DNA of 64,000 nucleotides from Thalassomonas haliotis. Its GTDB lineage: Bacteria; Pseudomonadota; Gammaproteobacteria; Enterobacterales; Alteromonadaceae. The DNA lies in NCBI RefSeq assembly GCF_028657945.1, contig NZ_CP059693.1, positions 124,001 to 188,000 on the forward strand. The letters are read 5' to 3'. Both the position numbers and the translations under genes were made by a program. Shown here piece by piece: positions 1-18,186 of the stretch (positions are counted from its first letter, which is position 1; every line of letters starts with the position of its first letter). The notes below the pieces were generated by a model. That model was not told where the DNA came from. It did not search any database and saw only the letters and a program-made list of their open reading frames with translations.

Positions 1-2
1 CC

Positions 3-278: not shown

Positions 279-369
279 GTACTGTGTTATCCCTGCCTGT
301 TTCGTCAAAGTAAGCACATAAACCGGCCCGGAAAATTTAGCCGTGCAGGCGGAATTTTTCCATTTTTAG

Positions 370-386
370 TGTATTATTAATATACA
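370..386. promoter_or_regulatory. AT-rich imperfect palindrome upstream of the HTH gene
   Basis: TGTATTATTAATATACA is a near-palindrome 53 bases before the start of the HTH protein at 439. It could be an autoregulatory operator, as is usual for antitoxin-like HTH proteins. This is inference from position and symmetry only. Confidence 0.3.
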
Positions 387-438
387 AGGTTTACTTTTTT
401 TACTAGTATGTAGTTGTAAAATACGTAAAGGTGGTGGT

Positions 439-1044: not shown

Positions 1045-1103
1045 GCCAGCCGAAACGCCTGTATTGGCCAGCTATATTTGCCGCTTTCATTATTCAGTAA
1101 AGG

Positions 1104-1778: not shown

Positions 1779-2006
1779 TGCTGTGCTCTTTAAATTCCTT
1801 AAATTCGCCCTGCTGCTGAAATCTTATAGATTTATCAGCAAGCTCCGGGGGATTTTATCATCAAAGGCCCGTTGATAAGCAAATTGGTTTCGGCTTTTAA
1901 AGAGATTTAGCCTGTTATTGTTGTTTTTTCCACAGAGCAGCCTCATTGATAGCTGTTGTGATGAAATTATCTGTTTTCTCTTAAAAGAGATGGAGCCTGA
2001 TTTTTT

Positions 2007-2873: not shown

Positions 2874-3046
2874 GCGCAGGGTCCGTTATTACTCCTCTAC
2901 CTGGCGTCAAGTTCTGTATTGGTCGGCGGCATTATTTTAAAGGCTTCACTCTTATATTCGATACCTGAGGTTTTGAAGCTCAAGCTTTGCCGATTTGAAA
3001 GCTAAACACTTGATCGGTATGGACCGGCTCATCTTGCTTTAACAGC

Positions 3047-4378
3047 TTATTTAAAGTCTTCAGTTAGCAACAGCTTACTAATGCTCTTTCTCAAAGGCGC
3101 CGGTACTTCATAGTCTTGCGATAATTTATCCCAAAGCGAGACAGCATCAATGACACTATCAATTATTTCATCTATTTCAGCACGTTTGATTTTCGGAAGG
3201 CAAAGATCTGCAACTGCATATATATCTTTTCTGCTGTGCTCTTTTCTTTTACCATTCATCGCCATCCAGTGCTGCTCAACCCAAGGGTTGCCTGCCGCAT
3301 AGCTAAAGGCAACGTCATACGCAGGCGTAACTCGCCAATGTTTGTCATCAACAAGCATAAAGGCTGTGTTTTTTGAGTGATCATCATTGTTGCGTGCTAC
3401 ATGGTTGAAGACCATGCGTTTAAAAATTTGAATGGCGTCCTCTTTAGGCAGCCCCAACTCTCTGGCCACCTTAAAGACTTGTTCATATGAAAATGCACCC
3501 GGCTGATTATAATTTACATGGGATATTGCTGTTAATGTTTGAATATGGCGCTTTTCGTTGCCGTTAACCCTGTCAAAGCGTTTTGTTACAAAGTGCCTTC
3601 TTTGGCCTTCCGGGAGTAGCTTGCAAGGTTCCATATGAATGCCGGCTTCCAGCGCCATCAGGTGATAAACATACTCCATCACCCCATAGCCCTGGGGATC
3701 ACCAAAAGATTGCTGACTTCTGTCGCGCTCCGTTACCCCGTCAAACTTTAATAAATAATGGCTAAAGCCCTTAGGAGCTTCCGTTTGCCCGGATCTGACC
3801 TGGGTAAAATTCTCGTTAAATGCTAAAACGGCTTTGGGTCTTGCACCACCTGCACTTGTTCCTACAGCCAGGAGGGCTTCAACCATTTCCTTGTCTTCAT
3901 GTACTTCATCAAAAGACACATCCTTCTCAAAACCAGAGCGTTCATCCAAAACCGATTGAGCAACCTTAGTTAAGGTTTCAAGTTCGATGTCATGGGAAGC
4001 ATTAAAGCCTTTGACTCTGCGGGAAGGAAAATACTCCAGCGCCCCCATCCCCCTGGAGCCGGTATATTTTAGCCGTTCTAGAGGAGTAATGCCGTGGGTT
4101 CGATTGACTTGCTTTGCAAGCCACTGATCCAATATCGCATTACCGAAGCTGTCCGGTAATGAATCGGCTACCAGCCCGGGTAAGCCTTTAAACGTGTCTT
4201 TGTCTAACCCTGGAAATTGATAGATACGACTACTTGCCACCGGCATGGTTAATGGCGCTAAAGGGATTTTCTTTTTGATAAATTCAGGGAAATATTCAAA
4301 CTGCCCGGCAGCTGCCCCAGCTTCAAATGAAATAGCGGCAGCTTTTTCACCTTTATATCTAACTTCGATAGTTTCCAT
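3047..4378 (-). CDS. hipA: HipA-family serine/threonine kinase toxin
   Basis: About 443 residues, the usual HipA length. The N-terminal HipA domain is followed by SRGMGALEYFP, a Gly-rich loop (GTSAGGARPKAVLAF), the kinase core with VTKRFDR, and the catalytic loop HVARNNDDHSKN, whose Asp/Asn residues are intact; a metal-binding Asp lies in TPAYDVAFS. Known HipA toxins phosphorylate glutamyl-tRNA synthetase or other targets and cause growth arrest. The ATG at 4378 is preferred over the upstream TTG at 4384 because its first base is the last base of the hipB stop (TGATG), which gives translational coupling. HipB would neutralise and co-repress it. Confidence 0.9.
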   Translation of the reverse strand: METIEVRYKGEKAAAISFEAGAAAGQFEYFPEFIKKKIPLAPLTMPVASSRIYQFPGLDKDTFKGLPGLVADSLPDSFGNAILDQWLAKQVNRTHGITPLERLKYTGSRGMGALEYFPSRRVKGFNASHDIELETLTKVAQSVLDERSGFEKDVSFDEVHEDKEMVEALLAVGTSAGGARPKAVLAFNENFTQVRSGQTEAPKGFSHYLLKFDGVTERDRSQQSFGDPQGYGVMEYVYHLMALEAGIHMEPCKLLPEGQRRHFVTKRFDRVNGNEKRHIQTLTAISHVNYNQPGAFSYEQVFKVARELGLPKEDAIQIFKRMVFNHVARNNDDHSKNTAFMLVDDKHWRVTPAYDVAFSYAAGNPWVEQHWMAMNGKRKEHSRKDIYAVADLCLPKIKRAEIDEIIDSVIDAVSLWDKLSQDYEVPAPLRKSISKLLLTEDFK

Positions 4379-4695
4379 CACCAATCCAGCTCTTGTTTGT
4401 TCTCATTCAAGTTCTTTGATTTTTCACTCGTGTAGGCTCTTTGACGCTTTCTTTTATTTCTCTCAACCAATTGCACCGGTGATATAGCTTCTTCGGGAAA
4501 TGCCGCTTCTAAAGCGTCAATTCTTCCTAAGGCTTTCATTATTGCCAGATAAGTATCTAAGCCACTTAACCCTTTCTCTGCTTTAATGATGGCGGTTCTG
4601 GACAGGCCTGCCAGCTCGGCTAAAGATTCCTGAGAAATGTTTTGGTTAAGCCTGTATTGCTTAACTCTCTCACCTATAGTTTCCGAAGTGATCAT
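4378..4695 (-). CDS. hipB: HipB-type antitoxin / XRE regulator
   Basis: A ~105-residue XRE-family protein with a clear helix-turn-helix (QNISQESLAELAGLSRTAIIKAEKG). It precedes hipA in a coupled operon. Three in-frame ATGs exist, at 4716, 4707 and 4695. The last is favoured because AGG lies about six bases upstream of it and the next residues (ITSETIGERVKQYRLNQN) match the usual start of the family. HipB binds its own promoter and the HipA toxin. The C-terminal ~30 residues are basic and probably disordered. Confidence 0.85.
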   Translation of the reverse strand: MITSETIGERVKQYRLNQNISQESLAELAGLSRTAIIKAEKGLSGLDTYLAIMKALGRIDALEAAFPEEAISPVQLVERNKRKRQRAYTSEKSKNLNENKQELDW

Positions 4696-5672: not shown

Positions 5673-6746
5673 ATGATGGCTGATAAAGTAAATTCCCACT
5701 GGTGTACCATGCCGGTGTTGCTCGCTATGGGCAAAATATTTATACAGAAATACTGGTTGTCTCGCCATCTGATCTTGTCTGTTTATTTACCGGTTTTTAA
5801 TATCTTGTTTTTTGCATTGATCTTAATGACTAACGGGCAATTTTCAATTGAAGTCTTCTGGCATTTGTCTGCATATATCTGGATTACTTTACTGCTCTGT
5901 TGGCTGGTTAGCACTTGCTATATTGAACTGAAAGTTTTACCCGTTAAAAATGGCTTATATTTTTTCCTGGTATATAGCTGCTGTGTGCTATTTAGCAGCA
6001 TAGCTGCTTATTTTATCATGCTGCTGATCGGCGATGCTCAGGTGACGCAGGGAAAATCCCCGGTAGCTCCCGCTATGCTGGCCCAGGTTGAAGTGCTTTT
6101 GTTTACTGCCTTGTCTTATATTTTTGAGCTGAAGAAACATCAGCTGATGTTGCAGGCAAATTTTAAAATGGCGCGTTTTAAAAGACTGAAATCGCAACTT
6201 AATCCGCATATGCTGTTTAACTCGTTGAACCTGATCACCTCGGAAATAGAAGATAACCCCAAGAAGGCCGTTAAAATAGTGAATGAGCTGGCGGTTTTAT
6301 TGCGTCACTTTCTAAAAAAATCTGATGTGCAGCTGTTGCCTTTAAAGGAAGAAATTTCGTTAATTGAACGATACTTGTTCATCCAGAAAATGCGTTTTGC
6401 AGACAGGCTGAACTATCAAATTGATATTGATGAGTCTTTGAATTCATGGCCTTTTCCGGCATTGACGCTACAACCCCTAATTGAAAACTGCATTGTGCAT
6501 GGCTTTTTAAATAAGCAGGGAACCGGCAATATTCGACTTAGGGTAAGGTCTGTGGCCGGACAATTGTGTGTTGAACTGGAAGATAATGGTGTTGGCTTTG
6601 ACGTTGATAGCAGCAGGCATGGCAAGGGCCTGGATATCGTCAAACAGACCCTGAACTTATTGTTTGGTGACAAGTATGAATTTGCAATAAATTCGCGGGT
6701 GGGGGCGGGCACTTATGTCCGCTTTATGATCCCTGCAAAAGGCTAA
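5673..6746 (+). CDS. LytS/AlgZ-type membrane sensor histidine kinase
   Basis: 357 residues with four hydrophobic N-terminal helices (about 32-52, 63-82, 96-118, 138-153), then the His_kinase domain of the LytS/YpdA family: KSQLNPHMLFNSLNL with the phospho-acceptor His179. A GHKL ATPase domain follows (LQPLIENCIVHGF as N box, LEDNGVGFD as G1, HGKGLDIVKQTL as G2). It signals from the inner membrane to the response regulator that starts five bases after its stop. The stimulus is unknown; the sensor part is only membrane helices. The start is uncertain: the ATG at 5673 has no clear ribosome site, and ATGs at 5709 or 5727 are alternatives. Confidence 0.85.
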   Translation: MMADKVNSHWCTMPVLLAMGKIFIQKYWLSRHLILSVYLPVFNILFFALILMTNGQFSIEVFWHLSAYIWITLLLCWLVSTCYIELKVLPVKNGLYFFLVYSCCVLFSSIAAYFIMLLIGDAQVTQGKSPVAPAMLAQVEVLLFTALSYIFELKKHQLMLQANFKMARFKRLKSQLNPHMLFNSLNLITSEIEDNPKKAVKIVNELAVLLRHFLKKSDVQLLPLKEEISLIERYLFIQKMRFADRLNYQIDIDESLNSWPFPALTLQPLIENCIVHGFLNKQGTGNIRLRVRSVAGQLCVELEDNGVGFDVDSSRHGKGLDIVKQTLNLLFGDKYEFAINSRVGAGTYVRFMIPAKG

Positions 6747-6751
6747 AAGAG

Positions 6752-7588
6752 ATGTCAGTCAAAAACGCCTATGAGCGTATACTTGTGGTGGATGATGAAG
6801 CCGCCGCCCGCAAAAACATTATCAGGGCGCTTTCCGGTTTACTTGTTTGCCCGCACATCAAAGAAGCGGTTGATGGTGAGCAGGCTTTACGCCTGATAGC
6901 GGAATGGCGGCCGGAACTTGTTTTTTTGGATATTCAGCTGCCGGTAAAAAATGGCCTATCCGTCGCCCGACTGACACAAGATATTCCATATCAGCTTATT
7001 TTTGTTACTGCCTATGATGAATATGCTGTTCAGGCTTTTACCACCCATGCCGTTGGCTTTATCTGTAAACCCATTTGCCGGGAACAAGTGGCGACCAGCC
7101 TTAAGCAGCTGGTTGATTTGCCTTACCGTTTGTCAAATCAGCAATTAAAACAACTCTCACAATCAATAAATCCCCAAGCCGAGCAGGCAAGCCTGGTGCT
7201 CAGCTGCGGTGAAGAAACAAAAATTATCTGTCCGGAGCAAATCTTGTTTATCGAATCTACCTGCGGTTATTGCAAGGTGGTACTAAACCCGCAAGGCATC
7301 CAGTTGCACGGCACAGATTCAATTTACTCCGATATGGCGTTAACCCAGATCCACAACAAGCTTTTGGCTGCCGGTTTTTTAAGAGTGCATCGTAATTTTG
7401 TCGTGAATACCCAGGCGGTGCTCGGCTACTTCAGTAAACTGGGACGGAATTATATACGGATAAAACCTGCCGGCGAGACGCTTATTCCGGTTTCCAGGCG
7501 CAATGTAAAATCGGTTAAGCAACACTGGGTTAAGCCTAAAAGCGTAACAGATGTTTGCCGCCTGATATCTAAGATAAAAGAGGGTTAG
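6752..7588 (+). CDS. LytTR-family response regulator
   Basis: 278 residues. The receiver domain (1-125) has the acidic pair D14/D15 in LVVDDE, phospho-acceptor D60 in LVFLDIQLP, the T/S in FVTAYDEYA and Lys in FICKPI. A LytTR DNA-binding domain (about 165-265) follows, with LFIESTCGYCKV, FLRVHRNFVVN and IPVSRRNVK as typical strands. It pairs with the upstream LytS-type kinase in an operon. LytTR regulators bind direct repeats upstream of a small number of targets. The Cys-rich strand in the LytTR domain is slightly unusual. Confidence 0.88.
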   Translation: MSVKNAYERILVVDDEAAARKNIIRALSGLLVCPHIKEAVDGEQALRLIAEWRPELVFLDIQLPVKNGLSVARLTQDIPYQLIFVTAYDEYAVQAFTTHAVGFICKPICREQVATSLKQLVDLPYRLSNQQLKQLSQSINPQAEQASLVLSCGEETKIICPEQILFIESTCGYCKVVLNPQGIQLHGTDSIYSDMALTQIHNKLLAAGFLRVHRNFVVNTQAVLGYFSKLGRNYIRIKPAGETLIPVSRRNVKSVKQHWVKPKSVTDVCRLISKIKEG

Positions 7589-7655
7589 TGACAGTTTTAT
7601 TCGGGTACTTATCTCAGGACGAGACAATAGAGTATAAAAAGGTCATGAAGGTTAA

Positions 7656-7871
7656 GTGTTGTCCTGGCAAGTTTTTTTGCTGGCAATTTATGCCAGTTTG
7701 GCTTTGTTCTTTCTAAATTACCGACTTTTTGATTTGTTGCTTTGTCGAACTGCTGATTTAAGCAATCTGTGTATGGCTTTTATGTTTACCAGTGAGCAAT
7801 ATCCCAATAACCCCTATGGTGCCTGTAGTATTTGTCGTTGGGATGATGACTTTGAAATGATTTATGAGTAG
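7656..7871 (+). CDS. Possible small membrane protein, unknown
   Basis: A 71-residue ORF with GTG/TTG starts, 67 bases after the response regulator. It has one hydrophobic N-terminal helix (VFLLAIYASLALFFLNYRLFDLLLC) and an acidic, Cys-containing C-terminus (GACSICRWDDDFEMIYE). There is no clear ribosome site, and an overlapping 23-codon ORF begins with an ATG at 7645. It could be a target of the two-component system or chance. Low confidence. Confidence 0.3.
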   Translation: MLSWQVFLLAIYASLALFFLNYRLFDLLLCRTADLSNLCMAFMFTSEQYPNNPYGACSICRWDDDFEMIYE

Positions 7872-8281
7872 TTAAATTGATTTTCATGGCAATATTAATG
7901 AGTTCGTTCAGCAAGTGGCTGTGCATCTTGCAGAAGCCAGTTTTTAGCTACAGAAAGTACTTATACAGTCCTAATTAAGCAATTAAATTAATAATAATCA
8001 TAATATTAAGCTAAAAATAAAAAGCCAGCGGCCACAAAAGTGACGGCTGACTTTTCTGCCCACCCTATCCCGTATTCACATGTTATGTTTCAGCTAATCA
8101 GCAGTGCCTTTGGCCTAGCTTAATTCTAAGCAATAACGATGTGCTCCTAAAATTGTTTGAATAGCACTGTGGTAGCGAAGCGGCTAGTCACAGGGCTTAT
8201 CAAAATTGATACTTCAAACGATTGTGGTAACCCACATGTTTTGGCGTTAAGGTGCCAACTTCCTATTGGGGTATCCTAAAT
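7872..8281. other. Intergenic region with several hairpins
   Basis: No ORF stands out. A strong terminator-like hairpin lies at 8020-8055. Closer to the minus-strand gene are shorter inverted repeats: CTGTG with CACAG near 8166-8195, GTGG with CCAC near 8226-8237, and TTGGC with GCCAA near 8240-8258. This could be a structured RNA or gene-end hairpins. No family was recognised. Confidence 0.3.
8020..8055 (+). terminator. Terminator-like hairpin, possibly bidirectional
   Basis: AAAAGCCAGCGGCCAC, loop AAAA, then GTGACGGCTGACTTTT: 13 of 16 positions pair and both ends carry A/T tracts, so it could work on either strand. It lies between the small membrane ORF (plus) and the HTH gene (minus). Confidence 0.55.
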
Positions 8282-8941
8282 TTACCAAATGGCAGGGTAT
8301 TCAACAACCCCGTCTATATCAAAGCCATGATTAAGCAAAGCTTGCCTGGCAATGAAAGGTAAAGTATTCGCGTCAGTCGGATATTCAGCCAAGTGTTCTT
8401 TAGCATAGTTATCAATAACACTCAGCAGTTCAGGTAACTCATATTGTTCAGATACTATTGAATACCAGATGGCATCTTCAATCATTGATTCTAATTCTTC
8501 ATTTGTATGCTCAAAAGTAAGGCGCTTTTGAAAAATAACCCGGAATTTGTTTTCACCTTGATGATGAATAACTAATTTAAGTTGTGGTATTTTTTTTATT
8601 AATTTAGCTCTAGATCTTCTAGCATCATGAAATGCCAGATTTAAAATTACCTTGCCCTCAACTTTGTGAAAGGTTTTTTCCTTAGTTTCTGGGTTTATGC
8701 GCCAATATACTCGAAAAGTGTTTCGTCTTAGTTTATGGCCATAAACATCAAGAAGAGGCTTCAACTGTTGTTCTGTTCCTTGTTTTGAGCCTTTATTCCA
8801 TGCACTAACTACTGATTGTTGAGTTCTACAAGCATCAGCGATTTCTATCTGTGACCAACCATCATTAAGTGCTAGCCTAACCAGTTGTTTAGTTTGCTTG
8901 AATTTACGCTTATTTTTTTTGGGGTTTGTTGTTGCTTCCAT
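8282..8941 (-). CDS. HTH protein of unknown family
   Basis: 219 residues. The basic N-terminus (NPKKNKRKFKQTKQLVRLAL) leads into a helix-turn-helix (GWSQIEIADACRTQQSVVSAW, about 28-48). The rest is an unrecognised domain with a strand-rich centre (TFRVYWRINPETKEKTFHKVEGKVILNL) and a helical end. The ribosome site AAGGGAAAAG directly precedes ATG. It is the second gene after the 43-residue Asn/Gly-rich peptide (8994-9125) with a 52-base gap, so the two probably form an operon. The base composition is AT-rich like a mobile or accessory region. The function is unknown; DNA binding is likely. Confidence 0.6.
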   Translation of the reverse strand: MEATTNPKKNKRKFKQTKQLVRLALNDGWSQIEIADACRTQQSVVSAWNKGSKQGTEQQLKPLLDVYGHKLRRNTFRVYWRINPETKEKTFHKVEGKVILNLAFHDARRSRAKLIKKIPQLKLVIHHQGENKFRVIFQKRLTFEHTNEELESMIEDAIWYSIVSEQYELPELLSVIDNYAKEHLAEYPTDANTLPFIARQALLNHGFDIDGVVEYPAIW

Positions 8942-8993
8942 CTTTTCCCTTAAAATGAGGCTGGTGAATAATCACCGGCCTCTCCATTAATTA

Positions 8994-9125
8994 TTACTTT
9001 TTCTGGTTCGGATTCATTTGCTTACCACGATTACCCTGAACTTTAGCATAAGCAGGGTTAGTCCCTGAAGTTCCTTTATTAGCATTTCCTTGGTTACCTT
9101 TATGGTTATTGTTTTGATTAGACAT
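8994..9125 (-). CDS. 43-residue Asn/Gly/Lys-rich peptide
   Basis: A short ORF with a near-perfect Shine-Dalgarno (AGGAGA, seven bases before ATG) encoding MSNQNNNHKG, a middle with NKGTSGTNPAYAKVQG, and the end NRGKQMNPNQKK. It has no hydrophobic residues to speak of, no Cys and a high basic/Asn content, so it is probably disordered. It heads an operon with the downstream HTH gene. I do not recognise it; possibilities include a small nucleic-acid-binding protein or a regulator partner. The strong ribosome site and protein-like end make chance unlikely. Confidence 0.6.
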   Translation of the reverse strand: MSNQNNNHKGNQGNANKGTSGTNPAYAKVQGNRGKQMNPNQKK

Positions 9126-9398
9126 TTTGTTTCTCCTGGTTGATTGCTTGTCTAAATAAATCTTAAGAAAATGTTGAAAAAATAAAATTGATATTATGGT
9201 GATAAAAAATGATATTCAGAGATATTTATAGTTTTTGCTTTAAATTAAGCTGCTTTCTAAGTCTTAATCTTATTTTTCATGGCAAGGGAGGTGATTAAAA
9301 ATTTATTTACAAGCCAATACTCACTGGTTTTCAGAAGGCTAAAAAAGCAAGCTCTTGTTTATCCCTAATTTTCCCATCAAGCTTTTGAGAGCAATAAA

Positions 9399-9559
9399 AT
9401 GACTGACCAAATCATGACCTTGAAAGAGGCTGCCGAGTATTTAAAACTGACAGAAAAAACTCCCTGCCTTTAAAGCGGGGGGGGAGCTGGCGCTTCAAAA
9501 TGACTGACTTAGAAGCATGGATAGAACAACAGAAAGACAAGGTGGCAGATAATGGCTGA
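9399..9559 (+). pseudogene. Broken excisionase/MerR-like HTH gene
   Basis: The ATG at 9399 opens a typical excisionase-type HTH (MTDQIMTLKEAAEYLKLTEKT). The frame then breaks. The second half of such a protein (PAFKAGG, SWRFKMTDLEAWIEQQKDK) is still readable, but in two different frames and without the expected ~10 residues in between. A run of eight G at about 9477-9485 looks one base too long. It therefore carries an internal deletion plus a frameshift. Intact homologues sit just upstream of DUF1016 (YhcG) genes, as here. Confidence 0.7.
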
Positions 9560-10034
9560 ATTAAGAGCAAAAGCTTTACTATTGGTCGACATCCAAGATT
9601 TAATCACTCAAGCTAAACAACAAGTTACGGTTGCGGTCAATGTTACCTTAGCTCAGCAGCTAACCAATGAATTTGGTAAAGTATTCTCAGAGGAAGAACT
9701 ACGCAGAATCATGAAATTTGCTGAGGTTTTTCTTGACGCAGAGATTGTCGCTACACTGTGGCGACAATTAAGTTGGAGTCACTTTAAATTACTTATTTCA
9801 TTAAAAGAGTCATCAGCTCGTGAATTTTATGCGCAAATGTGTGCGAGTGAAAATTGGAGTGTTCGTACTATACATGAGCGTATTGACAGCATGTTATTTG
9901 AACGAACGGCTTTATCTAAAAAACCAGAAGAGCTAATCGAAACAGAGTTACAACAATTAGCTGAACAAGGGCGTGTAACAGAAAACTTAGTACTTAAAGA
10001 CCCCTCTGTGTCAAACTACAATGTTTCAATCTAA
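9552..10034 (+). pseudogene. Truncated DUF1016/YhcG-like gene (nuclease domain missing)
   Basis: 160 codons match the N-terminal DUF1016 region: QAKQQVTVAVNVTL, RQLSWSHFKLLISLK, EFYAQMCASENWSVRTIHERIDSMLFERTALSKKPEELI, LVLKDPSV. Intact family members are about 340 residues with a C-terminal PDDEXK nuclease. Here the chain ends right after the LKDP motif, so the nuclease is gone. A segment of about 40 residues between VNVTL and AQQLTNEFGK also appears deleted. With the damaged HTH gene before it, this is a decaying remnant. Its stop is directly next to the stop of the convergent flavoprotein gene. Confidence 0.7.
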
Positions 10035-11240
10035 TTAACAAACACCACCACAAGCCCAGCCGCTGCTCCAGGCAAATTGAAAATTATATCCCCCTAGCCA
10101 GCCGGTAACATCGATCACTTCGCCAATGAAATAAAGTCCCGGGGCCTTTTTCGCTTCAAAGGTTTTTGATGATAATTCGTCGGTATCTATCCCGCCTAAA
10201 GTGACTTCTGCGGTTCTATAACCTTCGGTGCCATTGGGTTTTATGAGCCAGTTGTGGATGTAGTCGTGCAGGGCTTTTATTTCGCTGTGGCTGAGCTGGC
10301 CAAGGGTTTTATCCGGAATTTCATTTGCGGTGATCATGGCTTCAATAAAACGTTTTGGCATCAGCTGTGCCAGGGTGTTTTTTAGTGATTTCTGGCCGTG
10401 TTCTTTACGTCCTTGTTCGATCTCTTCACTTAAGTTGTGGTCCGGTAGCAGGTTGATGGTTACTGCTTGGCCTGCGCGCCAGAAGGAGGATATTTGCAGT
10501 ATTGCCGGGCCGGAGAGGCCTCGGTGGGTGAAGAGGATATTCTCGCGGAACTCGGTGCCGTCTTCGCTGCTGACCAGGGTTGACAGGCTGATGCCGGATA
10601 GGCCTTCGAAACGTTTTTTGTCGTGGTCGTGCAGGGTTAGCGGTACTAGTGCTGCCATGGTGGGGTGGATGTTCAGGCCGAATTGTTCGGCGACTTTGTA
10701 ACCTATGCTGGTTGCGCCCAGTTTTGGCATGGTCAGGCCGCCTGAGGCTATTACCAGGGATTCGCACTGGTAGGTTTGTTCTGTGGTTTTTACCTGGTAG
10801 CCGTTGTCATTTTTTTCAACGCCCAGTACTTCGCTGCGCAGCTTGGTTTCTACGCCTGCCCATTCGCATTCGGTTTGCAGTATGTCAACTATGTCCTGGG
10901 CGCTTTCATCGCAGAATAGCTGGCCCAGGGTTTTGTGGTGGTAGTTCAGGCCGTGTCTGTCTACCAGGTCGATGAAGTCTTGCTGGGTGTAGCGGCTCAG
11001 GGCGGATTTTACGAAGTGCGGGTTTTGGCACAGGTAGTTTTCCGGGCTGGCGTTTTCGTTGGTGAAGTTGCAACGGCCGCCGCCGCTGATGAGTATTTTA
11101 CGACCGGCTTTTTTGCCCATGTCTACTACGGTGACCTGGCGGCCGCGGTAGCCTGCGGTGGCGGCGCACATCAGGCCGGCGGCGCCGGCGCCTATGATCA
11201 GGACATCAGTTTTTAATACATTCACGGTTTTCTTACTCAA
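10035..11240 (-). CDS. NAD(P)/FAD-dependent oxidoreductase, BaiN/HI0933 (YhiN) family
   Basis: 401 residues, the usual length. The N-terminal Rossmann FAD motif is VLIIGAGAAGLMCAATAGYRG (about 14-34), followed by GRKILISGGGRCNFTN, a family hallmark. A central domain has GLSGPAILQISSFW. The C-terminal FAD-contact segment is ITGWLGGYNFQFAWSSGWACG in type (here VTGWLGGYN). The reaction of most members is not established; related BaiN enzymes reduce steroid or other double bonds. It is probably cytoplasmic. It is transcribed alone, toward the DUF1016 remnant. Confidence 0.88.
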   Translation of the reverse strand: MSKKTVNVLKTDVLIIGAGAAGLMCAATAGYRGRQVTVVDMGKKAGRKILISGGGRCNFTNENASPENYLCQNPHFVKSALSRYTQQDFIDLVDRHGLNYHHKTLGQLFCDESAQDIVDILQTECEWAGVETKLRSEVLGVEKNDNGYQVKTTEQTYQCESLVIASGGLTMPKLGATSIGYKVAEQFGLNIHPTMAALVPLTLHDHDKKRFEGLSGISLSTLVSSEDGTEFRENILFTHRGLSGPAILQISSFWRAGQAVTINLLPDHNLSEEIEQGRKEHGQKSLKNTLAQLMPKRFIEAMITANEIPDKTLGQLSHSEIKALHDYIHNWLIKPNGTEGYRTAEVTLGGIDTDELSSKTFEAKKAPGLYFIGEVIDVTGWLGGYNFQFAWSSGWACGGVC

Positions 11241-11451
11241 ACAGCTGTGGTCGGTTATGGCGGCTATTATAAAGCGATCAAAACCGGGGAGCTATCGGCG
11301 CAGGCCAGTTTTCTTGATTAAAAACAATTTATACTCTGCGGGGCGGCGTTGGTTGCTTGAATTACGCTCTTTTTCAAGGTAGAGTGCCACCGTTAACAGC
11401 CTTACCCTGTAGGGCGATACGGATATTTCAAATAATAACAACGGATGCTTT

Positions 11452-11793
11452 ATGTTTAATCTTTTAATGACAGGCGATGACCTGCGACGTATCAGGCTTT
11501 CTGTCAACCGCTCTACAGAAGAAATGGCCAAAGTAGCTGGTGTACACCGCACCACTTATGAGAAGTGGGAACGAGGTGTCGGTTTTCCCCGTGGCGATAA
11601 ACTATTGCTGATGATGCTCTATTGCCAATTTGATATTTCCCAAATAATCGACGGACTCGATGCACTCAAAAAAGAATTCTCTCAATACAAGGATCTAGAT
11701 GATGATTATCAACCTAATAGCTGCCGCGTTTCAAAAAAGAAAAACCACCTTAGATCTGCTGGGGGAGACGAAGCATTTGACACTGAGTCTTGA
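11452..11793 (+). CDS. XRE-type HTH regulator
   Basis: 113 residues. Helix-turn-helix at about residues 15-45 (LSVNRSTEEMAKVAGVHRTTYEKWERG). The protein continues with a short helical part and a polar tail. Its last 95 bases overlap the ORF of the Gly-Gly repeat peptide in another frame, so the last ~30 residues (CRVSKKKNHLRSAGG) are less certain as functional protein. The next two genes follow on the same strand, so it may be the local regulator of the peptide cluster. Confidence 0.65.
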   Translation: MFNLLMTGDDLRRIRLSVNRSTEEMAKVAGVHRTTYEKWERGVGFPRGDKLLLMMLYCQFDISQIIDGLDALKKEFSQYKDLDDDYQPNSCRVSKKKNHLRSAGGDEAFDTES

Positions 11794-12061
11794 AGACGTT
11801 AAAGAGGTTGCCGCCGGATCTGGTACTGATAATGGGACTAAACCAAGGGTTTTAGCTGCTGGTGAAGTTAACTCTATTGTTGGCGGCAGTTCAGGGCAAA
11901 ATGGGATTAAACCAAATACTCTGATGATTGATGAGCTTAAAGCTGTTAGTGGTGGTTCTGGTGGCCATAACGGACCTGATCCGAAAGCCGTGGCTTTTGT
12001 AGCTCCTATGGCGGATAGCTTTTCTCCACAAAAGAAAGATGAAAACAAGATAACCCCATAA
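11699..12061 (+). CDS. Peptide with three 23-residue Gly-Gly repeats, bacteriocin/RiPP-precursor-like
   Basis: 120 residues from ATG 11699 (AAGGATC upstream), or about 94 from TTG 11777 (GGGGGAG upstream). Three tandem units of exactly 23 residues begin at 11792, 11861 and 11930. Each follows the plan (D/E)-V/L-x-x-V/I-x-x-G-S-x-x-x-N-G-x-x-P. The second and third units contain SIVGGSSGQNG and LKAVSGGSGGHNG, which resemble the end of a double-glycine leader. The segment before the first unit (LTLSLEDVKEV) is also leader-like. A polar tail follows. No hydrophobic core or cysteines are visible. It sits between an XRE regulator and a membrane protein. The function is unknown; a secreted multi-copy peptide is a hypothesis. 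Confidence 0.6.
   Translation: MMIINLIAAAFQKRKTTLDLLGETKHLTLSLEDVKEVAAGSGTDNGTKPRVLAAGEVNSIVGGSSGQNGIKPNTLMIDELKAVSGGSGGHNGPDPKAVAFVAPMADSFSPQKKDENKITP
11792..11998 (+). repeat. Three tandem 69-bp coding repeats
   Basis: Units 11792-11860, 11861-11929 and 11930-11998 encode the three 23-residue repeats. Conservation is stronger at protein than DNA level: G-S, N-G and P are kept at fixed places. This suggests an old duplication under selection. Confidence 0.75.
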
Positions 12062-12091
12062 GCTGGAGCAGTATATAAAGGATAAGATTAC

Positions 12092-12715
12092 ATGGCTAAG
12101 TTAGTATTAATATTTTTAGGTGTCTGTTACGCCGTTGTAAGTAAGAATCCCTTTCATGTTTCAATAATTATAAATGTCTCATTGGTACTAATCATGCTGA
12201 TGAATAGGAAAAATATAAATGTAGTGCATTTGTGTGGGGCGTTATTGGCTGTTTATATCATTGAGATGTTGGTATTCGAATATGTAGTCATAGTTGAAAG
12301 AGGCAGGATGTCGCCCATGTGGCTCAATGCGACTATTTATTTTACGCACTTAGTTGTTGATCTGGTGTTATTTGTTTTAGTGGCGTTACGGGCACCGTTC
12401 ACCAGAGGCCGACTGGCAGCACAGGGCAAACCTCATGATCATGTGTTTATCTATAACAGTGAATTTGGTTTAAAAGGTTTATTTATTGTTTTCATAATCG
12501 TTGATTTTCTGGCGCTTGCGGAAAACTTTATCAGGCATCTGGATGAATTTGGCCTAAACGCTGAAATTGCAGAATTCTTTGCCAACTGGACCATCATTTA
12601 TTACAGCTATAGCCCGGCTAAATTTGTTCTGTTAGGTATCACCTTCCTGTTGATTTGGTCGATGACAACCGACATAGGGCAAGATAAATACAAGAAAAAG
12701 GCTGTGATCTCATAA
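12092..12715 (+). CDS. Multi-pass membrane protein, unknown (possible immunity/transport partner)
   Basis: 207 residues with about six hydrophobic segments (roughly 2-17, 22-36, 46-68, 82-101, 125-142, 172-192) and a short charged end. The ribosome site AAAGGATAAG lies about eight bases before ATG. It starts 30 bases after the Gly-Gly repeat peptide gene and is probably cotranscribed. No transporter or enzyme motif is recognisable. Immunity protein, exporter part or unrelated membrane protein are all possible. Confidence 0.6.
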   Translation: MAKLVLIFLGVCYAVVSKNPFHVSIIINVSLVLIMLMNRKNINVVHLCGALLAVYIIEMLVFEYVVIVERGRMSPMWLNATIYFTHLVVDLVLFVLVALRAPFTRGRLAAQGKPHDHVFIYNSEFGLKGLFIVFIIVDFLALAENFIRHLDEFGLNAEIAEFFANWTIIYYSYSPAKFVLLGITFLLIWSMTTDIGQDKYKKKAVIS

Positions 12716-12868
12716 GTGCTTTTTCTGCGGTATTTTTAAAACCATCACAGGGAACCGGCAAAGGTTCCCTTGTTATTTTTGAAGGGTTGCGCCATCGTCC
12801 CTGACGGCCCCTTACAGCATCCGGGCAAAAGGAGGAAATAAAATCCCGGAGCTTGTATGCTTCCATGC

Positions 12869-13375
12869 TTAGTGTTTGATTATCGGCTTTGTAGGTTTTG
12901 GGGGCGTGTACGCCAGATAATCAAAGTATGCTTTATTGCCTATTCTTTCCCTTGCCGCGAGTTGCTTGAGCACCGTTTTTCTCTGCATAAACTTCGGCTG
13001 CCAAACCGGCTCGTTTTCTTCCGGTAATTTTTTCGAAACATAGTTAAGTTCATACAAGGCATTGAGTACATCCCTTTCTTTATCGCCGGGAAAATAAAAG
13101 CGCAGTTCACTGATACGAAAAACCGGGTGATCAAAGATGAAGCCTCGCAGTTGCCGTTTGAGCGTACCGGGAGAGCACATACCTAAGCCAAGGTTTTCAT
13201 AAACCTCGGCGCGCACTTCTACCTTAACTTGCACCGGCATCTTGTATATACAAGCGTCATTTAATATCTGCTCAATAGTCAGCTGCTTTTGTTTGGGGCG
13301 GTGTTCCTGCTCTTTAAGTATTTGCCTGACAATACGGACTAATTTGGGGATCTGAGGTTTGTTCAATGTTGACAT
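12869..13375 (-). CDS. Unknown protein, paralogue of the divergent gene at 13545
   Basis: 168 residues. Matches the divergent neighbour along its length: VEVRAEVYENLG, FIFDHPVFRISELRFYF, LYELNYVSKKL, EPVWQPKFMQRKTVLKQL and GNKAYFDYL align with VEIRARVLYQLG, FIAAYPVFRWSELRYRF, LHRLKYTSRYL, EYVWAPKRMWTTRVKKSL and GDPAYFDFL. The conserved F-R-x-S-E-L-R-Y/F block may be a winged-helix-like element. I do not recognise the family. It is divergently transcribed from the paralogue with a mirrored promoter region. Confidence 0.6.
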   Translation of the reverse strand: MSTLNKPQIPKLVRIVRQILKEQEHRPKQKQLTIEQILNDACIYKMPVQVKVEVRAEVYENLGLGMCSPGTLKRQLRGFIFDHPVFRISELRFYFPGDKERDVLNALYELNYVSKKLPEENEPVWQPKFMQRKTVLKQLAARERIGNKAYFDYLAYTPPKPTKPIIKH

Positions 13376-13404
13376 CGTCCATGTTGATTTTAAAGAGAAA
13401 TGAT

Positions 13405-13504
13405 TATATTGGCCAGGTTGTGTGAAATCGCTTCAGTAACAAAATTGAGAGAAAAATTTCAGTTTTTTTCTAATGGTGCGATTTCACGCAACTTGCCCGA
13501 TATA
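13405..13504. promoter_or_regulatory. Mirror-image divergent promoters of two paralogues
   Basis: Two 27-base arms, 13405-13431 and 13478-13504, are inverted copies with 23 of 27 identical positions. The core is GCGATTTCACRCAAC. Each arm ends in a -10-like hexamer pointing outward: TATAAT (13403-13408, minus strand) and TATACT (13501-13506, plus strand), about 25-40 bases before the respective ATG. No good TTGACA sits 17 bases upstream, so the conserved block may bind an activator or special sigma factor. The symmetry suggests that gene and promoter were duplicated together. Confidence 0.65.
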
Positions 13505-13544
13505 CTCCGGGAGCATCAGGGAAGCTAAGTATTAACAGGATGCT

Positions 13545-14036
13545 ATGGACAAATTTGATAACAGCGAAGAGCTAATAAAAGTGCTGGTGAATATGGTTAC
13601 CGGCAAGCTGCACCAGGGAAAAACATTAGAGCGAATTCTCAGCGAATCCGGCATGGCCGGTGTCAGTATTTATTCCAGGGTCGAAATCCGGGCCAGGGTG
13701 TTATACCAGCTGGGCGAAAGGGGCACTTCAAGCGAGCAATTAACCGCTGCCCTGGCAGGTTTTATTGCCGCTTACCCGGTATTCAGATGGAGTGAATTAC
13801 GCTACCGCTTTACCAGCAATATCGAGCATGAAATTGAAGCGGTTTTGCATCGCCTCAAATATACCAGCCGTTACCTCGAACAAGAGCAGGAATATGTCTG
13901 GGCGCCGAAAAGAATGTGGACCACCAGGGTTAAAAAGTCTTTGCAGCAGCGGACACAGTTAGGTGACCCGGCCTATTTTGATTTCTTGTGTAATTACCCG
14001 GCAAACCTTTTACTCGACAATTTACGGAAGCAATAA
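13545..14036 (+). CDS. Unknown protein, paralogue of the divergent gene at 12869-13375
   Basis: 163 residues; ribosome site AGGA before ATG. Homologous to the divergent gene over most of its length, with the strongest block FIAAYPVFRWSELRYRF (about 78-94) and a Trp/Arg-rich stretch EYVWAPKRMWTTRVKK. No enzyme motif, signal or membrane segment is visible. It is followed after one base by another unknown gene, so the two are very likely cotranscribed. Function unknown. Confidence 0.6.
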   Translation: MDKFDNSEELIKVLVNMVTGKLHQGKTLERILSESGMAGVSIYSRVEIRARVLYQLGERGTSSEQLTAALAGFIAAYPVFRWSELRYRFTSNIEHEIEAVLHRLKYTSRYLEQEQEYVWAPKRMWTTRVKKSLQQRTQLGDPAYFDFLCNYPANLLLDNLRKQ

Positions 14037-14037
14037 C

Positions 14038-14721
14038 ATGACAAAGCAGCAATTAAGAACGCGTCAGTCGCCAAAGCGCAGAAAAATGCTTGTGGCCAAC
14101 AACAGCCCGGGGCGTGATTTCATTATGCCGATGTCGGTAAAGCCTTACCACATCAGGTTTATAAGGGCCGGGGTGTCGGCCCCCATAGTGCCAGAGAGTG
14201 CTAAAGGCAAAAGGTTGATGAGGGTTGAGGCTTCGCCTTGCGTTTTCGGCCACTTGCCCAAGGTGAAAGTGCTCAGCAAGCACAGCTATGTCATGGTATG
14301 CCAGCAGGTGCAGTGCAACTGTCCGGGGCAGAGCGGGGTAACAGCGCAAAAAAGTTATGCCGAGGCAATATTGGAGTGGAATAAATTTACCCCGGTATAC
14401 AGTACCCGGGACTTATTTCACCCAACGGTGAGGGTAAAGGGGCTGCCGCTAAAAGAAGTCCGGCTCAACCTGCAGGTGGAATGGATGTTCATCAATAAGT
14501 TTCTCGCCTCATTTAGCCGGGACGATTTAATGGCCGACGACCGGGAGGTTTTTATCATCCGTGAAAAATGGCTGGCGCTGCTCAGGCACCAGCTGCACTT
14601 GCTGGAAGCGGCCGGGGCGGCAACAAGCCCCCCTGCCAGGGTAAAAACCTTAGCTAAACAAACCGGGCAAGAGCACTCCAGGCCAATGGTGGGGCCGCTG
14701 CTAAGCAAAGCTTTGGCTTAA
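14038..14721 (+). CDS. Unknown protein downstream of the paralogue pair
   Basis: 227 residues from the ATG at 14038, one base after the previous stop; an upstream in-frame ATG at 13963 would overlap the previous gene and is unlikely. The N-terminus is basic (TKQQLRTRQSPKRRK). The centre has three Cys in VMVCQQVQCNCPGQSG, possibly a metal site, and later VEWMFINKFLASFSRDDL and a Leu-rich helix. The end is a polar tail. I recognise no family. Tight coupling to the paralogue suggests a joint function. Confidence 0.55.
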   Translation: MTKQQLRTRQSPKRRKMLVANNSPGRDFIMPMSVKPYHIRFIRAGVSAPIVPESAKGKRLMRVEASPCVFGHLPKVKVLSKHSYVMVCQQVQCNCPGQSGVTAQKSYAEAILEWNKFTPVYSTRDLFHPTVRVKGLPLKEVRLNLQVEWMFINKFLASFSRDDLMADDREVFIIREKWLALLRHQLHLLEAAGAATSPPARVKTLAKQTGQEHSRPMVGPLLSKALA

Positions 14722-14830
14722 CCTGGGTTGTTTGCCTGATGTGGGCCAGCTCTGCGATATCGGGCATGAGCAATCTTTTGTGCTTGCAGGCAGCGGGAGC
14801 TGTTATTTTTATCAATATGCAGGCATTAAA

Positions 14831-14849
14831 AAGGGGCCGTCGGCCCCTT
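14831..14849 (-). terminator. Rho-independent terminator of ferritin gene
   Basis: AAGGGGCCG, one-base loop region, CGGCCCCTT; read on the minus strand it is followed by TTTTT. It lies 21 bases beyond the ferritin stop and may also end the convergent plus-strand transcript. Confidence 0.75.
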
Positions 14850-14869
14850 AATACTGGCTTAAGCGTTAA

Positions 14870-15394
14870 TTAACCTGCGTCGGTCATAATGCTGGGTGAG
14901 CCGGTTTTCGCCAGTTCAGCCAGGTCTTTATCAATAAAGAACAAGGCTTTGCCGTCGTTGCCGACAAGTTCGATTTTATCGATAATGCCTTTGAATAATT
15001 TCTCTTCTTCATGCTGCTCGGCAACATACCATTGCAGGAAGTTGAAGGTAGAGTAGTCCTGGCAGGTGAAGGCGGCGTGGGCCAGTTCGTTGATTTTACG
15101 GGTCACCAGGCATTCGTGCTCATAGGTGGCTTCAAAAACCTGGCCTAATGAAGAAAATTCGTGCGGCGGCGCTTCTATCGCACCCAACACTGGCATAGAG
15201 CCGGTTTCACTAACATAAGTGAATAAGCGGTTCATATGGGTCATTTCTTCTACCGCATGCTTGCGCATAAATTCTGCGGCGCCTTCAAAACCTTTTTCTT
15301 CACACCAGGCACTCATTTGCAGGTACAGGTTGGAAGAATAAAACTCTAAATTAATTTGAGTATTTAATAACTGAACCATATCCGGTTTTAACAT
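14870..15394 (-). CDS. ftnA: Non-haem ferritin
   Basis: 174 residues, full ferritin length. The ferroxidase residues are recognisable: E in [11 protein letters not shown] (helix A), E-x-x-H in [10 protein letters not shown] (helix B), and E in [10 protein letters not shown], with Q in [10 protein letters not shown] (helix D). The protein forms 24-mer cages that oxidise and store iron in the cytoplasm. It stands alone, next to a peroxiredoxin gene on the same strand but about 200 bases apart. A perfect FNR-type box lies 93 bases upstream of the start. Confidence 0.93.
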
Positions 15395-15486
15395 AGTTTT
15401 GCCTCGTGCTGCTGTTCGAGATGCTTATTTAAAAGCGTTAATGGCTGAGAATTTTGCCTGTTTCACGTGATCTAATCAAGCTTTTA

Positions 15487-15500
15487 TTGATCTAAATCAA
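15487..15500. promoter_or_regulatory. FNR/EtrA-type box upstream of ftnA
   Basis: TTGATCTAAATCAA matches the FNR consensus TTGAT-N4-ATCAA exactly. A weaker relative (TGATCTAATCA) lies about 20 bases closer to ftnA. FNR control of ferritin is known in enterobacteria. Here it is inferred from the site. Confidence 0.55.
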
Positions 15501-15590
15501 AATAAAGTCATTAAAAAACAACGAGATAATTAACGCTAATTGTTTTCATTCGGGTTTAGCTTTTATTCTCATTCAGATTTCGATTTTGCT

Positions 15591-16064
15591 TTACAGCAGC
15601 GCCAGTATCGATTCGGCCGAGCTTACTTTAAATTCTTTCGGCTGTTCAACCTGTAAGCTGGTCACTACGCCGTCTTCGACTATCATGGCGTAACGCACCG
15701 AGCGGTAACCGCCGAAGCTGCCGGTGTCTTTGCCAAGGCCCATGGCTTTGGTGAAGCTGCCGTCGCCATCGCCCAGCATCATCAGTTGTTCGGCATTTTG
15801 TGCCTGGCCCCAGGCTGCCATAACAAAAGCATCGTTTACCGATAAACAAATAATGCTGTCGACACCTTTGGCTTTTATGGTCTCGCTATTAACAACAAAA
15901 CCGGGCAGGTGGGCGGCCGAGCAGGTGGGGGTAAAAGCGCCGGGCAGGGCGAATATCACAACTTTTTTGCCGTTGAATAAATCGCTGCTGCTGTGGCTGA
16001 TGACACTGCCGTCAAGGAGTTGCTGTAATTCACCTTGGGGTAATTTGTCGTTTACTTTGATCAT
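15591..16064 (-). CDS. Prx5-type peroxiredoxin
   Basis: 157 residues of the type II/Prx5 (AhpC-TSA redoxin) family. The peroxidatic Cys48 lies in PGAFTPTCSAAHLPGF, the family signature. C74 (SIICLS) corresponds to a non-resolving position, so glutathione or glutaredoxin is the likely reductant. Further family marks are NDAFVMAAWG, MLGDGDGSFTKAMGL and GYRSVRYAMIV. It reduces peroxides in the cytoplasm. The gene is monocistronic and upstream of ferritin on the same strand, a sensible iron/oxidative stress pairing. Confidence 0.92.
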   Translation of the reverse strand: MIKVNDKLPQGELQQLLDGSVISHSSSDLFNGKKVVIFALPGAFTPTCSAAHLPGFVVNSETIKAKGVDSIICLSVNDAFVMAAWGQAQNAEQLMMLGDGDGSFTKAMGLGKDTGSFGGYRSVRYAMIVEDGVVTSLQVEQPKEFKVSSAESILALL

Positions 16065-16239
16065 AAGAGTCCTTATCGGGCTGGGTTGTCTGGGGTCTTA
16101 TAGTAGGGGATATAAGTGACAGATCACAGAGGAATTTCCGGCTATTTTATTTACCTGGTTATTTACCCGGCTATTCGCCCGGCAAGTGAAGCGGGCCGGG
16201 TTTATGCCTGTGCTATAAATCCGGCCGCGGCTGTGCTGT

Positions 16240-18186
16240 TTAACTGGCGAGTTTTAAGGTGGTGCTGATATCCTTGACCTGGCCGGAAACATCAAGCGAG
16301 ATATTTTCTGCCAGTTCGCTCGACTGTTTCACTTCGTCATTCACCCTGGCCATGGCCTGTTCAAAGGCCTGGTAGTGGCCGCGCTGATCTTTGATTTGCG
16401 CCAGGGTGTCCTGGGCAACCGTGGCGGAGGCCTGGGCCTGTTTTACCACGTCGGCGGCATTGCCGGTCAGCTGTTGGGCGATGTTTTGCTGCTCCTGCGA
16501 CGCCTGTTCAATGCCTGAAATAGTGGTATTGATGGTTTGGCTGGCGTGCTGTAATTGCGCCAGGCGGCCGGTGATTTGTTGCAGGGAGCTTTGGGTTTTG
16601 CCCGCCAGCTGGCGCACTTCGTCGGCCACCACCGAGAAGCCGCGGCCATGTTCGCCGGCGCGTGCCGCCTCTATGGCGGCGTTTAGTGCCAGTAAGTTGG
16701 TTTGCTCGGCAATGGCGCTGATCACATCCACGATAGTGCCGACACTGTCTACCGACTGCCCGAGCACCTCTATTGCTTCTTTACCCGAGCGGGCGGCGCT
16801 GCCGGTGGACTCGGTGGCCTGTAATACCTGTTCAACCTTTTCCTGGCTGTCGAACATGGCCTGTTCGGTGGCGCGGGCATTTTCCGCTACTTGCTGCGAC
16901 AGGTCGTTTACTGTGTCTGTGGCTTGTCCCAGGGCATTCATGATCTCCCTGACCGACTGCACCTGGTCATGGGTATTGGCGGATGAGCGGTGAATATTGT
17001 CCGCCTGCTGCTGCATATTGTTTAAGGCGTTATGCACCAGGTTGAGCTGCTGAGCTTTTTGTTTGTCTTCAAAGCGCAGCTTTTCCACCATTTTGTTGAA
17101 GCTGACGGAGATCTCCCCCAGTTCGGTGCGTTCGCTGATGCCGGTAATATTGCTGATTTTCCCCTGCTCTACCAGCAGCACAAAGCTGTTGCGTAATAAG
17201 CGCAAAGGTTTAAGCACAATTTTGTGTTGCAGGTAGTGGTTGCTGATCAGGTAAATCAGTAAACATAATCCCAGGGTATAAACGATTTGTTTTAGCTGCT
17301 GGTAAATGTCCTGCTGCTCGTCGTCTATCGCCTGTTCATTGCGGAATATCTGCTGCTCCAGTTCGCCCAGGGTGGCTTTGAGTAACTGGCGTCCTTCGTT
17401 GAGTTGTTGTTGCTGTCGGGCAATTTTTCTGATTTCATCGCCGTAGCGGTTGATTAATGAATTAAGCTCGTCGAGGGCTTCTGCACTGAGATCTTCGGCT
17501 TCGTTATCATCGAGTAATAAGTCGTCTTCCGCCAGCAGGTCATCCTCGTCTTCTTGCTCTGGCATTATCGCCAACAGGGGAAATTGCCTCAGCTGGCGGT
17601 AATTGCTTTTGAGATCATTAAGGGCGGCTTTTATGCCTGAATTTGAGTCTAATTCCCGGGCGTGGATGAGCCGGGCAAGGTTGGCGGTCAGTTGCTGGTT
17701 GTTGTGAAGATAGGCTTGCTGCTGGGCGGCGCTTAACTGCTGGCTTTGTCCGGCATAGTCGGCCAGTTGATCGTTGATTGCCAGCATGCCCTGTTCGCTG
17801 TTGCGTACCAATATTTGCGGGTCGCCGCTGAGTTTGCCCAGGGCGCGAAAGCGGGTATCGAGCAGCTGCTGCAACTGGCTGTTTTGCTGTTTAATGCCGA
17901 GATTTAATTCGCTTGGCGGCAGCAGGTCGATAGCAGCATCTACTTTAGCAAATACCTGGGATGACTCGCTTAATAAGGCCGCATCACCGGTGAGTAAATA
18001 GTCACTAATCAGGCGGTTGATATCTACCACTACCAGGGACTTTAATTTCTGGTAGTCCTGGTAATGCTGTCGGCTGGTATTAAGGGTAGTGGCTACCCAA
18101 TATAAGGTCGCCAGAAAAACAACGGCAAACACGACGATGGCTACCGTCGATAATTTGAAAAAGCTGGAAGCGCGCACCTGATGCAT
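16240..18186 (-). CDS. Methyl-accepting chemotaxis protein
   Basis: 648 residues. TM1 at about 13-33, a long periplasmic helical domain with a very acidic loop ([22 protein letters not shown]), TM2 near 300-318 ([19 protein letters not shown]), a HAMP region ([31 protein letters not shown]), then the signalling domain. The hairpin tip [20 protein letters not shown] and [18 protein letters not shown] are intact. The acidic periplasmic loop is unusual and might bind cations. No CheR-docking pentapeptide is visible at the C-terminus. Confidence 0.92.

Follow-up and report, generated by a model that had tools for sequence, protein, structure and literature searches.

A repeated-leader peptide cassette of Thalassomonas haliotis with an XRE-type regulator and a polytopic membrane protein: a candidate peptide-sensing unit

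Described peptide systems and the cassette

Receptor-based peptide signalling is a familiar feature of Gram-positive bacteria, while there are hardly any descriptions of it from Gram-negative ones. In Bacillus subtilis, the SdpC/SdpI/SdpR system (with its paralogue yitPOM/yitQ/yizB) brings together at one locus a secreted peptide, an integral membrane protein and a transcriptional regulator. SdpI sequesters SdpR, a regulator of the ArsR type. In the passages of PMC6818787 that deal with this system, sdpRI is described as encoding its own repressor. The cassette reported here lies in a stretch of 64 kb (positions 124001-188000; hereafter, the window) of a genome assembled as a single contig of 6.45 Mb, and consists of three genes: (i) an XRE-type regulator; (ii) a peptide precursor with double-glycine (GG) leaders; and (iii) a polytopic membrane protein with six predicted helices (6TM). 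By analogy of gene content, SdpC/SdpI/SdpR appears to be its nearest working analogue, although the cassette fails the Sdp-family domains tested: the window membrane protein has no Pfam match and, in consequence, no SdpI domain (presumably PF13630) was found in it at E 1. Furthermore, the regulator of the window is of the HTH_3 type instead of the ArsR type; its precursor combines GG leaders with hydrophilic cores, whereas Sdp has a hydrophobic toxin domain of 42 residues; and the relatives of the cassette include forms in which XRE and 6TM are fused.

Gram-positive GG pheromones and inducers of the ComC/BlpC/EntF type resemble the precursor in their leader. Their receptors are histidine kinases, whereas no histidine kinase is recognised in the cassettes and the cassette host is Gram-negative. 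Matches to EntF remained below the cut-off in loci L078, L002 and L133, and L133 matched ComC with 20.5 bits (cut-off, 20.4). Rgg/PlcR-type (RRNPP) systems also combine a peptide with an XRE regulator, but RRNPP regulators have a TPR domain, while the cassette regulator has 113 aa with an HTH only and the likely sensor would be the membrane protein. Class II microcins with C39 exporters share with the cassette the GG leader, a membrane protein beside the peptide and a C39 gene in the genome with an HlyD-like neighbour; in contrast to them, the cassette has no exporter at its locus and its cores are repeated and about 10 residues long. In addition, one 6TM family is common to all cassette paralogues, whereas, according to excerpts of PMC9746304, no evident resemblance links the microcin immunity proteins that have been verified. 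Viridisin and thalassomonasin are lanthipeptides with precursors from the same genus whose cysteines, as stated in part of PMC11433236, form lanthionine rings; the window precursor, instead, has no cysteine, and no lanthionine enzyme was recognised by eye in the ORFs of 8000-17000 (seven of which were scanned in Pfam). In a genome report on two Thalassomonas species (PMC4400438), antiSMASH predictions of bacteriocins and lantipeptides are mentioned but not detailed. A search of the open-licence literature in PubMed Central found no description of the cassette system.

On balance, and with slightly more confidence than doubt, the cassette is read here as an autoregulated peptide-sensing unit whose peptide would be sensed by the 6TM/XRE pair. 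The observations behind this reading include the cassette family, the variation in unit number, the fit of the leader, the conservation of the core and the XRE-6TM fusions.

Gene layout, repeat array and cassette family

The three ORFs (XRE, peptide and membrane protein) are present where the sequence-only reading of this DNA had placed them, with a single direction of transcription (+ strand). The XRE-type regulator, an HTH protein of 113 aa whose C-terminal tail is conserved in alignment, is encoded at 11452..11793; the precursor (119 aa, three units) at 11702..12061, with an alternative ATG at 11699; and the 6TM protein at 12092..12715. The start of the peptide gene overlaps the XRE gene in a different frame, and a Shine-Dalgarno-like AAGGA for it can be read off within the XRE gene (11689..11693, +). 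On the 3' side of the three genes there is a terminator-like hairpin (12749..12770, +; 8-bp stem and T run), which is a pattern match only (two found against 1.6 in shuffles). An Rfam scan of 10900-13500 returned no RNA. The peptide ORF is open in the orthologue L009 (genome G003), with a dN/dS of 0.48 past the XRE stop (XRE, 0.13; 6TM, 0.23), which indicates that the ORF is coding.

The repeat of the peptide consists of three consecutive units of exactly 23 residues (69 nt), all on the + strand: (i) unit 1, TLSLEDVKEVAAG / SGTDNGTKPR (11780..11848); (ii) unit 2, VLAAGEVNSIVGG / SSGQNGIKPN (11849..11917); and (iii) unit 3, TLMIDELKAVSGG / SGGHNGPDPK (11918..11986), which has the best leader, with L(-12), E(-8), L(-7), V(-4) and GG. 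The earlier description of "three exact 23-residue units" starting at 11792, 11861 and 11930 denotes this same array, four residues downstream of 11780, 11849 and 11918. It is exact as to length and not as to residues, since pairwise identity between the units amounts to 8, 10 and 9 of 23 residues and, at the DNA level, to 35-42 of 69 bases. The S-x-x-x-N-G-x-x-P core that had been assigned to every unit occurs in all three, while the double-glycine leader end, also assigned to each, is GG in units 2 and 3 and AG in unit 1. The period-23 score of the peptide is 144, a value reached by none of 2000 shuffles (maximum, 54); both DNA repeat finders applied missed the array.

Counting itself, the peptide matches eight places in the genome of the window, and a peptide profile returns the same eight places, with no orphan copy. 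The order XRE, peptide, 6TM is found at seven of them; given that the cassette at 362.9 kb has a stop within its 6TM gene, six of these seven cassettes are intact. The eighth place (L005) has no recognisable XRE and the start of its 6TM gene is apparently broken. There is also a 6TM remnant at 5.237 Mb. The 6TM profile A1 matches nine places in the genome of the window and 11, 8 and 7 in the three other genomes of the genus, and was matched in four of 94 further relatives; in 37 of the 39 loci fetched, an ORF of the XRE cluster lies 0.2-1.0 kb upstream of the 6TM gene. With a wider profile, 26 of 295 genomes of the family match, seven of them by short and weak matches (E 1e-4 to 8e-4), whose removal leaves secure matches in 19 genomes of nine genera. 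Wider draws, each counting the own genome, gave 5/394 for the order, 2/369 and 3/369 for the class and 2/319 for the phylum, and the sole match beyond the family of the window in these draws is weak (E 7e-4). As regards mobile elements, tblastn with the 6TM protein returned three Pseudoalteromonas plasmid records (the third one weak) and no phage record. The Pseudoalteromonas plasmid NZ_CP072685.1 bears a cassette, whose peptide ORF is not among the annotated features listed (the annotation is incomplete).

Two other features of the surroundings can be mentioned. A pair of paralogous proteins of about 165 aa is encoded on opposite strands of the window (12869-13375, -; 13545-14036, +), neither copy having a Pfam match at E 1. 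The pair is seen again in the vicinity of 13 of 39 cassettes, at a distance of 0.7-1.6 kb from the 6TM start in 12 cases, and may have been co-duplicated with the cassette. Another cassette copy (L007) is preceded, at about 1 kb, by three CRISPR-like repeats of 37 nt with a spacing of 61 (35-193).

Regulator, membrane protein, leaders and exporters

The XRE protein matches PF01381 (HTH_3) with 29.7 bits (cut-off, 23). In Pfam, HTH families alone were matched along its 113 aa, best at 11-59, with no C-terminal TPR domain. Among the anti-phage defence models of PADLOC, it has weak matches only, to RmrA and control-protein models, and the peptide and the 6TM protein have none. On the 5' side of the cassette, a conserved ACGGA motif (11419..11423, +) is a putative half-site of an XRE operator. 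Of 23 Thalassomonas cassettes, 20 contain ACGGA in the 70 bases that precede XRE, where mononucleotide shuffles give 1.3 (for the genome of the window, five of seven, with 0.45 in shuffles), five of the 23 being cassettes without a recognised start codon for which the stretch was taken to the ORF opening; because the cassettes have a common ancestry, this recurrence reflects conservation and is not independent proof. Two orthologues show a perfect 12-bp dyad around ACGGA, of which the window has the right half only. The XRE protein may bind at ACGGA, and the cassette may be autoregulated.

The 6TM protein carries the signature EN..RHLD.FG at residues 144-154, is 203-216 aa long in the intact copies of the genome and, in the window copy, matches nothing in Pfam, PADLOC, PHROGs or NCBIfam. 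Among 17 members of the family, Pfam recognised only DUF2569, YdjM and two DUFs, in one member each. A profile search of solved structures gave nothing real (best E 0.27), and an AlphaFold model made from the window and L009 proteins only was discarded (pLDDT 46.8). The six helices of the sequence-only reading are plausible: five appear as peaks in a hydropathy scan and the N-terminal one was added by eye. With loop borders hand-set on this basis, the charge is +2.1 to +2.8 for loop 4-5, -0.9 to -1.4 for loop 3-4 and -1.9 to -2.8 for loop 5-6. These values lean towards a topology with both ends inside, while the termini, loop 1-2 and loop 2-3 have too little charge to fix it. The N-terminal XRE of the fused forms, described below, would likewise place the N-terminus of the 6TM domain in the cytosol.

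In 11 ORFs (one truncated) of genomes G305, G185 and G269, the XRE domain is followed by the 6TM domain in a single protein; these fusions were found in one genus only. For the single fusion compared, hhalign gave 98.6% and aligned ENFIRHLDEFG with ENFIRNLDRLG. Locus L129 (4006-10006), on a Pseudoalteromonas replicon of 1.24 Mb, is a run of five fused genes and a single split cassette. Three intervals between neighbouring fused genes measure 44-48 nt and, hence, leave no room for a peptide gene; the split cassette beside them has, by eye, a candidate small GA-type ORF. The fusions are the strongest sign of a joint action of regulator and membrane protein. Together with the recurrence of the core beside 6TM under a changing leader, they suggest that the two proteins probably form a single functional unit, for which the peptide is the likely ligand.

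As to the leader, 38 units were extracted by pattern from 24 Thalassomonas precursors (at least one unit, in L079, was missed). Since the pattern fixed or limited positions -12, -7, -4, -2, -1, +1, +6 and +9, the frequencies of L at -7 (33 units) and of G at -2 (35) and -1 (34) are pattern-limited; at the free positions, -8 is D/E in 32 units, -6 is K in 28 and, in the core, +5 is K/N/T in all 38. The Thalassomonas leader fits the PCAT leader consensus L(-12)xxxE(-8)L(-7)xxxxGG, as given in part of PMC6959990, and shows the form L(-12)xxxE(-8)L(-7)xxV(-4)xGG by which a GG-leader peptide is recognised. TIGR01847, the NCBI bacteriocin-signal model, was passed by two of the four precursors first scanned (L078 and L002); L051 scored 13.4 (cut-off, 15.7), and the window precursor was not among the matches. 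In a later scan, none of eight peptides passed (not all of them GG-type), L133 scoring 14.6. The window peptide has nothing above the cut-off in Pfam, PADLOC, PHROGs or NCBIfam. The leader suggests cleavage at GG-type sites and export of the resulting peptides.

Among 31 distant peptides, chosen by eye beside distant 6TM genes, the following classes can be differentiated: (i) 18 GG-type; (ii) seven Sec-like without GG leader (L064, L065, L084, two in L135, L136 and L138), defined by a hydrophobic start with a mean hydropathy of at least 2.1, none of the seven being GG-type; and (iii) six of neither class (two in L056, L063, L134, L139 and L140). In L133, a hydrophobic stretch occurs together with GG sites. 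Short Gly/Lys/Pro segments are present in GG, Sec-like and leaderless peptides. SGGTKGDP appears twice in Sec-like L064 and L135; other doubled cores of distant peptides are SGDYNGEKPR/SGDYNGDNPR and GGTGAKKPPR (twice); and, among the leaderless peptides, L063 ends in SSDGNGGKPK, L134 in NSSGDRGTRPK and L140 in TGAGGHTGPKPV. A loose core pattern is found in 28 of the 31 peptides (7.3 in shuffles; 19 of 166 other ORFs) and a strict one in 12 (1.8 in shuffles; 5 of 166), counts that are descriptive only because both patterns were drawn up after the peptides had been seen. The leaderless peptides of L134 (4982-5215, -) and L063 have a common TV.IS.EA stretch. L134 bears a faint resemblance to FlgM (TIGR03824, E 0.089, under the cut-off), which makes flagellar export a conceivable third route for them.

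No C39 peptidase is encoded in the window, as had been noted from the sequence, and the search elsewhere that was then proposed found three C39 transporters in the genome (PF03412, 119-122 bits), all outside the window. By eye, each has an HlyD-like ORF nearby, and there is none at the cassette locus. The genome has, therefore, a PCAT and a membrane fusion protein, by which class II microcin systems are recognised. One exporter (L085, about 1.85 Mb; C39 and HlyD-like) stands by eye beside two small GG peptides, in what is likely a class II microcin locus (10283-10604 and 6032-8314). Another (L087, about 3.22 Mb) accompanies, again by eye, radical-SAM-like genes and a GG peptide with a CC..C core, likely a modified-peptide cluster (2-4390 and 6091-9566). 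The third (L086) is an orphan HlyD-like and C39 pair near ilv-like genes (gene identities by eye), with no GG ORF found by pattern in its stretch of 15 kb; the catalytic Cys, His and Asp motifs were seen by eye in its C39 exporter. This orphan exporter is 95-98% identical in three other genomes of the genus, has orthologues in G020 (79%) and G027 (77%; no 6TM match), and was matched in 50 of 98 genomes (E 1e-60), so it is not exclusive to the cassette system. The orphan pair is the best candidate for the exporter of the cassette peptides. All 10 genomes whose cassette peptides are GG-type have a strong C39 domain, as have three of the six whose peptides are not, a co-occurrence not counted as proof in view of the relatedness of the genomes and the omission of G104, G113 and G240 (peptide in neither class or not looked at); G049, G122 and G145 have cassette peptides without GG leader, yet strong C39 domains.

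These leaders and exporters are also what a bacteriocin or microcin with its immunity protein would have, which is the main rival and a somewhat unlikely one. The peptide would kill relatives, 6TM would confer immunity, XRE would be an autoregulator, and the cassettes would form an arsenal. TIGR01847 is above the cut-off in two paralogues and the genome has C39 and HlyD-like exporters; besides, the size of 6TM, its membrane location and its adjacency to the peptide agree with what excerpts of PMC9746304 ask of immunity candidates, and passages of PMC6818787 describe B. subtilis pairs of a regulator and a membrane anti-toxin that adjoin SDP-like toxins. The core itself argues against killing, as it is hydrophilic, rich in Gly/Pro/Lys, of about 10 residues and, by eye, free of long hydrophobic stretches, and its positions are conserved across paralogues; moreover, the type of leader for export varies while the core recurs, and the fusion of 6TM to a DNA-binding domain in one genus would be odd for a pure immunity protein. 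Of the possibilities raised by the sequence-only reading, a GG-leader precursor of several units is supported by TIGR01847 (passed by two of four precursors), by the variable number of units and by the C39 exporters of the genome. For a bacteriocin, nothing specific was found; as for the membrane protein as immunity or export, export loses ground for want of any exporter-family match, and the fusions suggest a partner of the regulator, which may still confer immunity. As a whole, its observation is partly confirmed and its interpretation partly supported.

Unit number and the proposed mechanism

Precursors of the genus have one to five units. Variation of the repeat number among homologues, another point put forward from the sequence, is found inside orthologue groups. 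In the one-member-per-genome groups (taken by tree alone from a maximum-likelihood tree of 33 6TM proteins), the units are 3/3/1 (support, 99/96), 3/1/2 (90/100), 1/1/2/1 (100/99) and 2/2/2/5 (93/95), the 3/1/2 group and that of the five-unit member being less certain owing to their supports. It is unlikely, though compatible with the other readings, that only the last unit and the C-terminal tail (..P.AD...TP) are functional, in which case the earlier units would be decaying duplicates and the repeats would have no multi-peptide meaning. Degraded leader ends fit this idea (AG in unit 1 of the window, GS in unit 2 of the L066 orthologue), as do the single unit of many paralogues and the partly broken copy in L073. 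Against it, the L066 orthologue has the same cores 1 and 2 as the window, whereas its unit 2 leader, its unit 3 with the core and its tail have changed; these identical cores weigh less because the unit 1 leader is also the same, except for the first residue of the unit. Furthermore, all five units of L078 keep GG, and precursors with several cores are also found in the divergent L133, L144, L148 and L140. Given the AG and GS ends, some units may escape cleavage.

An SdpI-like dual role, with 6TM as both immunity protein and receptor and a toxin peptide that induces its own immunity, shares its anatomy with the sensing reading and has a precedent in sdpRI (passages of PMC6818787), but it is very improbable given that no hydrophobic toxin-like core is seen and no toxin-maturation gene was recognised by eye in the cassettes.

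The autoregulated peptide-sensing unit favoured here would operate as follows. The product of the peptide gene would be a precursor of one to five units with GG leaders. A C39 peptidase exporter encoded elsewhere would cut it after the GG-type sites and export the resulting short peptides, which would read S-G-x-x-(K/N)-G-x-x-P-(K). The two ends of the 6TM protein would lie in the cytosol and its EN..RHL signature on the periplasmic side; this protein would bind the peptide and control its partner XRE, which would regulate its own operon. The units of one precursor would provide several ligands, and the dispersed paralogues would be parallel channels with slightly different peptides.

Even if the cassette were a bacteriocin locus, a precursor with repeated leaders and the alternation of GG-type with Sec-like export for a common core would be unusual. 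In a wider sense, it is tentatively proposed, with more doubt than confidence, that the cassettes represent a new class of Gram-negative peptide signalling: C39- or Sec-exported S-G-x-x-K-G-x-x-P-like peptides and an undescribed polytopic receptor, accompanied by or fused to a Cro/C1-type DNA-binding domain, would carry signals from membrane to DNA without a kinase, and in Thalassomonas the system would have expanded into a network of multiple channels (7-11 matches to the receptor gene in each genome, some of them broken), with several different peptides released at once from a precursor. If this is true, marine genomes would contain sets of parallel peptide circuits with a receptor family that is new and a precursor that naturally yields several peptides. 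The XRE-6TM fusions would then be a ready system for studying how a membrane sensor acts on DNA.
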